Below the pieces are notes generated by a model. The model made no database searches. It saw only the letters and a list, made by a program, of their open reading frames with translations, and was not told the origin of the DNA. A stretch of 37,104 bases of DNA from a virus: the IMG/VR virus record IMGVR_UViG_3300025395_000017, positions 1-37,104 of that record; one strand, 5' to 3'. Each line of letters begins with the position of its first letter. The stretch's first letter is position 1. This document shows positions 1 to 2,415 of this stretch, one piece after another. A program made the position numbers and the translations under genes.

Positions 1-1094
1 CACCACCAGTAAATAATAATGTCGCTGCATCGCCACCCCCACCAGAAGCAAATTTGGATAGTTCCGCAGCTACAGACAATTCAAAAATGTCTGATGGTTC
101 CGCAACCCCTGTAACAACTACTCCATCATCCACACCACCCGCTCCAGTGACCTCTACTAGCCCTTTTGGTAGAATCACCTTATATGGGTATGAAAAGAAA
201 GGACAAGCTGATTACGACACAAATTCTGCAAACGGAATAGGTATACAAAATATAAAATTAGTTCCCAATACAAGTTTCGCAGTTTCACCAGATATAGAAT
301 CATTATTTAGAGCAAACGGAATTGCACCAAAAGATACCGTTCAATTATCTTTGGGAAATGGAAATATAATATCAGGAACTTGGGATGATCGAACAGCAAA
401 GAATTTATCTGGAAGATTTGATATTTATAGTCCATCAAAAGACTATCCACACATAGATCAACCAGTAATGGGATTTGGGAAAGGGGATGGTGCTATGGTA
501 ACATCCTCTGCACAAGTAATGACAACTACTGATGTTGCTCCTGCTCCTTATGACACAACAAACGTACCAAAAGGGGTATTTTGTATTCCTGCAATTGGTG
601 CTTTATTATGGTGTTTCTTTAGAGAAGGAAACCCACTATTTCCAGTTTATTTTGCCGCATCATATAGAAGTTCAGAATGGAGTGGTGCATACAAATCAGC
701 TAGTCCTGGAATTGGGTTTGATCCTTCTTTAATGGGGAATGATACCATAAACAAAACTAGTTTATTACCAAACAAAGGTGGTGGTATAATTTCAACTGAA
801 GGAAAGGATTTACATGAAGTGTCATTAGTTTCATTTGCTGGAAGTCATTTAAAATTTAGCGAAAACCATACTATGTTATATGCTGCTGATGATTTTCATG
901 CACAAACTGATGGTAATATATTCAATATTGGATTATTAAACAGAGAAACACACACTAAAGGAATTGATAATACTGTAATAAATGGAGATTGTTATATAAA
1001 AGTTGGAAATGTGACGGATTCTAGTGTCCATGATGCAATAAATACAATTGAAACATTAATAGGAGAAATAAACAACGAAATGTTGAAACCATAA
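1..1094 (+). CDS. Baseplate hub spike protein, gp5-like (5' truncated)
   Basis: The frame is open from the first bases, so the gene begins outside the window; the TTG at 54 is only the first possible start inside it. Residue numbers count from that TTG. A Pro/Ser/Thr-rich linker (about 1-37) precedes a domain at 38-128 that resembles 3D/double-psi beta-barrel (RlpA/MltA-like) folds: the pattern AVSPDIE at 76-82, then WDDR at 110-113 and GRFDIYSP at 120-127, with aspartates 111, 112 and 123 as candidate key residues. A second domain (about 155-210) has the hydrophobic P-x-G-x-x-L-W-C-F-F and P-x-F-P-V-Y-F pattern of the gp5/VgrG OB-fold. The C-terminal part resembles the start of a spike stem. 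In T4, gp5 carries a lysozyme; here the 3D-like domain may play the cell-wall-opening role, which is inference. It is followed after 1 nt by the spike-tip gene. Confidence 0.6.
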   Translation, partial: PPVNNNVAASPPPPEANLDSSAATDNSKMSDGSATPVTTTPSSTPPAPVTSTSPFGRITLYGYEKKGQADYDTNSANGIGIQNIKLVPNTSFAVSPDIESLFRANGIAPKDTVQLSLGNGNIISGTWDDRTAKNLSGRFDIYSPSKDYPHIDQPVMGFGKGDGAMVTSSAQVMTTTDVAPAPYDTTNVPKGVFCIPAIGALLWCFFREGNPLFPVYFAASYRSSEWSGAYKSASPGIGFDPSLMGNDTINKTSLLPNKGGGIISTEGKDLHEVSLVSFAGSHLKFSENHTMLYAADDFHAQTDGNIFNIGLLNRETHTKGIDNTVINGDCYIKVGNVTDSSVHDAINTIETLIGEINNEMLKP

Positions 1095-1095
1095 C

Positions 1096-2415
1096 ATGAG
1101 CAATAAAAGAACCATACCATGTCCAAGTTGTAGCGGGAAAATTTTAGAAAACAAAAAAGAAAAATCTTTTTTAGAAATGATGAAAGGTGCAATAAAATCT
1201 CCTGTATTGCTTCTTAAACTCGTTATTACCCCACCTAGACAATCCAATATAATAGATAAAAAGACTATTTATAAAGGTGCTTGCCCTGATTGTGGAGGAA
1301 CGGGAACTTTTATCGATCCTACGGACACTAACCAGCAAGAACAAAAAGCAGTAGAAGTTGCACAAAAAAATGCGTCTGCTGTAATGGACGCTGAAGCAAA
1401 ATTAAATACAGGAGGATTTACCAATTCAAGACATATATCAGTTTTAGGAAATCAGGTTGTAGAAATTGGTGTAGGATTCAATAAATTAAAATCATATGCT
1501 GTAGTTGAAGGCGCAAAACCAGTAAAAGCTAAAATTAATATTGGATCAGGAGGAACGACAGGAGGAACAGCAAAAACAAACCAAATAAATGCGACGAATC
1601 CTTTAGCAACTCCGGGTGGACAATACTATATAAAATGTAGTAATAAGTTTACTCTTGTTGCTGGTGCTCAAGGAATAGAATTGAATACATCCGGCAATTT
1701 AAACATTGCTGGAGGTATAACAAAAATTACTGGTGCTGAAATGAACATCGGATCAAGTATAGGAACAACAACTATAGAAGGAAACCATTTAAAATTAACT
1801 GGAAAAACTATAGAATTAACTCCTGCAAATGGAAGTTCTACTGGTCAAGTGCAAGTAAATGCAACATTAGGTGTTGATGGTAATATGATAGTATCTGGTG
1901 GAGCACATATTGATGGAGAATTACATTTCATTTCTGCTACTACTACAAGACTCGACCCAAAACCTACTAGCTTTGGTGCATTGCCATTTGAAACTACTGG
2001 AAAAGCACAATGGGGAGGAACACCAAAAGAAGCATCTAAATCTGCTATAAAAGATTTACAAACAGTGGTAAAAGAATTTATCAAAGACCCTAGTATGTTT
2101 ATGTCAACTCCAAGAGGAGCAAATATGTTAGCAGAAAGGATGTCGCATATTGCATACACACTATCATCTCCAGTTCCAGTGGGATATGTCGGATCAGGAA
2201 TTTATGGCAATTCTACTGTGTATGTTTATCCACATCATCACACAATGCCAGAAACCGCACACGTTCATTCAATGGATTTACCAAATATTAAATTGTTTGA
2301 TACTGATAAACAGGTAAGAGAACAAGCATCTGATTGCCAAAAACCTCATCCAGTTCCTACCGTTAATGGTGGATTATCAATATTAACGAACTACGGTAAA
2401 AGCATGATAGGTTAA
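1096..2415 (+). CDS. Beta-helical tail spike/tip protein with N-terminal DnaJ-type zinc finger
   Basis: 439 residues. The N-terminus has two CxxC pairs, C9/C12 (CPSCSGK) and C63/C66 (CPDCGGTG); the second matches the DnaJ zinc-domain signature CxxCxGxG exactly. Residues about 170-285 are short, Gly/Thr/Ile-rich strands of the kind found in VgrG/gp5-type triple-stranded beta-helices. A helical stretch (310-350) follows. The C-terminal part is His-rich (H380-382, then HVH at 389-391, H418), recalling HxH iron sites at the tip of membrane-piercing spikes of P2/phi92 type. It starts 1 nt after the hub spike gene, so the two are probably co-expressed and assembled together. A zinc finger on a tail-spike component is unusual; its role is unknown. 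The end shares TTAA with the convergent gene. Confidence 0.55.
   Translation: MSNKRTIPCPSCSGKILENKKEKSFLEMMKGAIKSPVLLLKLVITPPRQSNIIDKKTIYKGACPDCGGTGTFIDPTDTNQQEQKAVEVAQKNASAVMDAEAKLNTGGFTNSRHISVLGNQVVEIGVGFNKLKSYAVVEGAKPVKAKINIGSGGTTGGTAKTNQINATNPLATPGGQYYIKCSNKFTLVAGAQGIELNTSGNLNIAGGITKITGAEMNIGSSIGTTTIEGNHLKLTGKTIELTPANGSSTGQVQVNATLGVDGNMIVSGGAHIDGELHFISATTTRLDPKPTSFGALPFETTGKAQWGGTPKEASKSAIKDLQTVVKEFIKDPSMFMSTPRGANMLAERMSHIAYTLSSPVPVGYVGSGIYGNSTVYVYPHHHTMPETAHVHSMDLPNIKLFDTDKQVREQASDCQKPHPVPTVNGGLSILTNYGKSMIG

Follow-up and report, generated by a model that had tools for sequence, protein, structure and literature searches.

A conserved four-cysteine finger at the head of a putative central needle protein from probable T4-related phages

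Why should a beta-rich phage spike protein with a histidine-rich tip begin with a cysteine finger? The question arises from a plus-strand open reading frame (1096-2415) in the window, which here means the whole stretch of DNA that was analysed, a virus record of 37,104 bases. The frame is a real open frame of 439 aa, and its protein begins MSNKRTIPCPSCSG. The original prediction read the product as a tail spike with a DnaJ-type zinc finger built from C9/C12 and C63/C66, and the sequence has both pairs where they were described, in CPSCSG (residues 9-14) and CPDCGGTG (residues 63-70). Most likely the protein resembles T4 gp5C and is the puncturing needle at the center of a T4-related contractile tail. 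Its parts and its upstream neighbor are as follows.

3..1094, plus strand: 3' portion of the gp5-like hub gene that lies upstream of the needle (full length in L009:4074-5999, 641 aa)
1096..2415, plus strand: probable needle (central spike) protein, 439 aa, with N-terminal C4 finger, helix, beta-rich shaft, and HxH tip (open frame; relatives in 28 viral loci)
1111..1320, plus strand: C4 finger, approximately residues 6-75 (from sequence; Cys in 22/22 rows)
1120-1131 and 1282-1293, plus strand: C9/C12 and C63/C66, with 50 residues separating C12 and C63 (from sequence)
1330..1404, plus strand: long helix predicted to follow the finger, residues 79-103; its E100 is invariant (model of residues 1-110; E100 in 22/22 rows)
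1618..1935, plus strand: beta-rich shaft, residues 175-280, with YxIKCSNxF (C181) and H271 (strands modeled at low confidence, pLDDT 36.5)
2227..2283, plus strand: tip segment, residues 378-396, with H380xH382 and H389xH391 (four His in 22/22 rows)

Relatives of the needle were collected by iterative searches of IMG/VR, which yielded 28 viral loci; all 28 tblastn matches start at query residue 1-7. For the final scan the seeds were LEVGLGMN-like and IKCSNKF-like peptides, both outside the finger, and hits were confirmed by tblastn of the entire protein; a relative lacking the finger could thus have passed. Twenty-two rows were kept. Left out were three loci 100% identical to the window (L040, L042, and L043), two duplicates (L049 of L048 and L065 of L064), and L066, in which the ORF is interrupted (282 aa); L049, L065, and L066 carry the same CxxC pairs. 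Median pairwise identity among the 22 rows is 36% overall and 30% over the first 110 residues, the lowest values are 27% and 17%, respectively, and the rows form 18 clusters at 70%. No relative was found by tblastn of the window protein and three diverged family members against 50,697 phage records, and plasmid searches and two genome scans for needle relatives also gave no match.

Cysteines C9, C12, C63, and C66 are present in 22/22 rows. Only six columns in residues 2-110 are invariant, namely these four plus D74 and E100, and the chance that four random columns in this region are all invariant is 2.7e-6. Both pairs are spaced as CxxC in 21/22 rows; in L050 the first pair is CxC. C9 and C63 are 53-62 residues apart across the family (54 in the window), and the loop between the knuckles varies in length, yet it is FLQRxFxIKIP-like in many rows. 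The CxxCxG glycine is found in the first knuckle of 20/22 rows and in the second knuckle of 18/22, and L050 and L051 keep the cysteines and not the glycines. The CxxCxGxG pattern that first drew attention to the protein is complete in the second motif of the window, while the first motif is only CxxCxG; across the family the full pattern occurs in the second knuckle of 11/22 rows and in both knuckles of none. Because the cysteines are kept in every row while the glycines vary, selection appears to act on four thiols and not on a DnaJ signature. The domain is probably a C4 site of two knuckles, and its sequence suggests that it binds zinc. A four-cysteine finger fused to a beta-rich, His-tipped spike is kept throughout the family, as the original prediction would have it, and none of the 22 homologues lacks the cysteines. 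In many loci the first cysteine lies 6-8 codons past the start codon, which follows the hub stop by 1-51 nt. Some needle ORFs as called have approximately 60-180 residues ahead of the finger, which may therefore not always form the very N terminus.

DnaJ cysteine-rich domains (PF00684) contain four CxxCxGxG motifs and two zinc sites, which the needle finger does not have. Both are made of CxxCxG knuckles, and the second needle knuckle with its flanks resembles DnaJ motif 3, but where DnaJ has four knuckles the needle has two, and it lacks a J domain and conserved glycines. Scores against PF00684 are 14.9 bits for the whole window protein and 19.9 bits for the fragment (gathering cut-off 32.7), and no J domain is present among the Pfam matches of the window protein to E 1. 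Every Pfam match of the window finger is under its cut-off, and the matches are spread across many zinc families; among 15 family members scanned, matches were to DnaJ in 10, Anti-TRAP in 12, and Lar in 13. When the 22 fingers were aligned as a profile with E. coli DnaJ, 21 columns around motif 3 matched, with a score reached by 0/100 shuffles that kept the cysteines. The same profile gave a weaker result with lambda Q, where 3/100 shuffles reached the score. The 21-column resemblance to DnaJ appears to be real but short, and common knuckle geometry can explain it. Membership in the DnaJ family was rejected on the grounds of two half-motifs in place of four, 0/22 rows with two full CxxCxGxG motifs, scores below the Pfam cut-off, and no J domain, and the "DnaJ-type" label falls with it. 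The zinc finger of lambda antiterminator Q (PHROG 127) also has two CxxCxG-type knuckles, and PHROG 127 matched weakly across both knuckles in 3/4 relatives scanned (E 0.022-0.073). In Q, however, the distance between first cysteines is 26 compared to 53-62 in the needles, and Q is a transcription protein.

A model of the finger (22 rows, residues 1-110) has a pLDDT of 69.3 and a pTM of 0.35. In this model, short strands at residues 6-8, 15-17, and 71-73 flank the knuckles, the loop contains helices, and residues 79-103 form one long helix; pLDDT is 76-82 for residues 71-100 and 60 for residues 101-110. Foldseek comparison of the model with PDB and viral libraries gave no match at E 0.001 or better. 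Its top two matches, neither significant, were BSD2, a DnaJ-type finger protein (E 4.2), and lambda Q (E 9.0), both of them finger proteins. VIA-align of the model against four chains gave none with a Z of 2 or more, and PDB sequence profiles gave nothing below E 0.1. The needle has no NCBIfam match above cut-off, and Rfam and tRNA scans were empty.

Gene order is conserved as well. A hub ORF lies directly upstream of the needle in 21/21 loci that have upstream sequence (L028 has no upstream DNA); 19 of these hubs were called by a sequence motif, and those of L051 and L061 were called by eye from the C-terminal sequence. Hub and needle are separate ORFs in all 21 loci, with a gap of 1-121 nt between the hub stop and the needle ORF as called. 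The start of the window cuts the hub gene, and the VanY part falls outside the window. The complete hub from L009 (641 aa) matches VanY (2e-10) and Phage_base_V (7.9e-5, slightly under its cut-off). VanY is found in the hubs of L009 and L013, and no Pfam hydrolase is found in those of L020 and L024. Hub residues 1-63 match PHROG 430 (baseplate hub/tail lysozyme) at E 0.0031, and a hub profile aligns with T4 gp5 residues 10-78 at E 0.0073, with an hhalign probability of only 5%. By profile, the start of the hub is a gp5-type OB segment. Its C-terminal end consists of a beta-stub and then a helix; in many rows the stub shows VEGD/VQGD/VMGD-like repeats. Elsewhere the window encodes a clamp loader, PhoH, and a ribonucleotide reductase, together with gp6- and gp25-type baseplate wedge proteins, of which the gp6-like one matches cyanophage gp6; the tail is therefore read as T4-related and contractile. 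With a gp5-like hub gene upstream in 21/21 loci, the protein is better read as a central puncturing needle than as the tail spike first proposed; a receptor-binding tailspike is disfavored by this neighbor and by the lack of a match between the needle and PHROG tail families to E 1.

Several features of the hubs and their surroundings were observed along the way. VanY occupies residues 156-262 of the L009 hub and follows the gp5-like OB start (L009:4074-5999, L013:4086-5993); in these two hubs, an LLWCFFREGNP stretch near the C terminus resembles the rest of the OB part, and the hydrolase looks inserted. A hub module with YGYEKKGQ (window approximately 175-460) matches part of long tape-measure-like proteins from other viruses (L021:4189-6813, L022:4243-6057) and may be mobile, perhaps wall-degrading. 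Some hubs carry a long low-complexity (Pro/Ser/Thr-rich) C-terminal extension, ending at L055:7949, L060:7682, L053:7560, and L063:7652. Downstream of the needle region, L013:9528-12740 encodes a 1070-aa protein of short Gly/Cys-rich repeats.

The His-rich tip noted originally is a family trait, with H380, H382, H389, and H391 present in 22/22 rows. Iron tips with HxH have been reported for needles of the P2 gpV, Mu gp45, and Sf14 gp47 types (PMC11821841), and T4 gp12 is reported to have a His445/His447 metal site (PMC3004832). By analogy, we propose that the HxH pairs of the needle tip hold an iron-type metal. A whole-protein fold model (4 rows) has strands in the shaft at low confidence (pLDDT 36.5), consistent with the predicted beta-helix; sequence comparison gave weak matches to VgrG (phmmer, E 0.41) and to T4 gp5 (hhalign profile, E 0.062), which are not significant. 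The needle of T4 gp5-type devices is a triple-stranded beta-helix with octapeptide repeats. No PAAR domain was found among Pfam matches of the needle studied here to E 1. In the shaft, H271 is invariant (22/22), and a third HxH (269/271, window 1900-1908) occurs in 14/22 rows and is absent in the window; the shaft may hold further axial metal. A fifth cysteine, C181 (window 1636-1638) in YxIKCSNxF, is also found in 22/22 rows, but this stretch is in a search seed, and its invariance is partly selected for.

Compared with T4 gp5/gp5C, the parts appear similar and their arrangement differs. Both have an OB-start protein with a wall hydrolase next to a beta-rich needle, among T4-like baseplate genes. 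In T4 these are made as one cleaved chain, whereas here there are two genes, with the finger where the joint would be; in the window's virus the OB segment and wall hydrolase sit together on the protein encoded upstream, and OB, hydrolase, and needle do not share one later-cleaved chain. The HxH tip is on the needle itself, while T4 has a separate PAAR-motif-annotated protein, gp5.4. T4 gp5 has no cysteine at all, and CxxC is also missing from the annotated central spike protein of cyanophage S-SCSM1; judging from these two records only, T4-like needles do not generally carry the finger. The simple central needles (P2 gpV, Mu gp45, and Sf14 gp47) resemble this protein in having HxH near the C terminus, which in those needles forms a metal tip. 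P2 gpV and Mu gp45 have the OB fold on the needle chain; in this family, by contrast, the needle carries a finger, and the OB start belongs to the protein encoded upstream. The A-1(L) spike gp25 is described as a single chain that has both an OB fold and beta-strands (PMC10966104), and the words "zinc" and "cysteine" do not occur in the main text of that paper.

T4 gp5 is reported to be made as one chain that is cut between Ser351 and Ala352, i.e., between lysozyme and beta-helix, after which gp5C stays bound as a trimer without a covalent link (PMC3004832). The T4 hydrolase reportedly has 10% activity until gp5C leaves, and loss of gp5C restores lysozyme activity (PMC3004832). For the present family we lean, by a little, towards a split gp5, in which gp5 function would be carried by two adjacent proteins, a hub and a separate needle whose finger docks to it. 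We infer that the finger is the joint because the genes are separate and the finger is at the head of the gp5C-equivalent piece. From start to end, the hub would comprise a gp5-like OB segment, then (in the window's virus) a peptidase of the VanY type, a beta-stub, and a terminal helix. The needle would start with a zinc-knuckle pair (C9/C12 and C63/C66), with one Zn per chain and three per trimer, and continue with a long helix leading into a triple-stranded shaft; at the tip, HxH pairs would bind an iron-type metal. The finger would serve as a rigid collar by which the needle, made separately, docks onto the beta-stub of the hub, and the force of sheath contraction would pass through this non-covalent joint. 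In the cell wall the joint would part and free the hub hydrolase, as T4 gp5C does after linker cleavage. The assembly handle suggested in the original prediction is close to such a docking joint and is a possible role. The hub's own C-terminal helix, and its long extension in some relatives, count against this docking reading. The zinc site could also be a releasable latch that holds the needle during contraction and lets go in the periplasm or wall upon oxidation, metal loss, or strain, unblocking the hydrolase; T4 uses gp5 proteolysis, and the needle family would use a metal joint to the same end. We consider this latch rather unlikely.

Other roles of the finger would account for parts of the same evidence. 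As a folding or trimerisation handle, it would act during assembly as a chaperone built into the protein, bringing the three chains into register, and the finished tail would make no use of it. This is unlikely, although the finger is at the N terminus and is made first, its second knuckle resembles DnaJ motif 3, and its top Foldseek match is a DnaJ-type finger protein (BSD2, not significant at E 4.2). Trimerisation of gp5 in T4 is reported to depend on gp5C (PMC3004832), and T4 gp5 has no cysteine; furthermore, conservation of the finger cysteines as strict as that of the tip histidines suggests a structural part. Docking to a partner other than the hub, such as the tape measure, an internal protein, or cargo, is less likely still. 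The loop, variable in length and FLQRxFxIKIP-like in many rows, is what a binding surface might look like, but the invariant neighbor of the needle is the hub gene.

The tail tip protein L (gpL) of phage lambda has an iron-sulfur site, and the needle, itself read as a phage tail-tip protein, has four invariant cysteines. Nevertheless, an iron-sulfur cluster or redox pair in place of zinc is improbable, given that most sub-threshold Pfam matches are zinc families and that the knuckles are of the form CPxCxG or CPxCGG, which is a zinc type. We find it very hard to credit that the finger truly derives from DnaJ and recruits unfolded protein or the DnaK of the host. The C9-to-C63 distance in the window (54) is within one residue of that from DnaJ motif 1 to motif 4 (144 to 197), but the local resemblance is to motif 3 and not to 1 or 4; there are only two knuckles, the glycines are not kept, no row has two full motifs, and no J-domain match was found. 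A chance motif or mistranslated N terminus with no functional finger has nothing in its favor except the shortness of the motif, and cysteine conservation in 22/22 rows rules it out with near certainty; the start codon lying 1-51 nt behind the hub stop in many loci also speaks against it.

In a literature search judged by title or the start of the abstract, no zinc finger in a phage central needle was found. The family that carries this finger probably belongs to uncultivated T4-related phages, in which the finger is probably sited where the needle would join the tail tip. It is a small, testable domain. In T4, hub and needle are made as a single chain that is later cut, whereas the needle family encodes the two parts apart. 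On the docking reading, a conserved four-cysteine domain on the needle head would be a second way to build the joint that bears the force of tail contraction, and perhaps also a second way of release.
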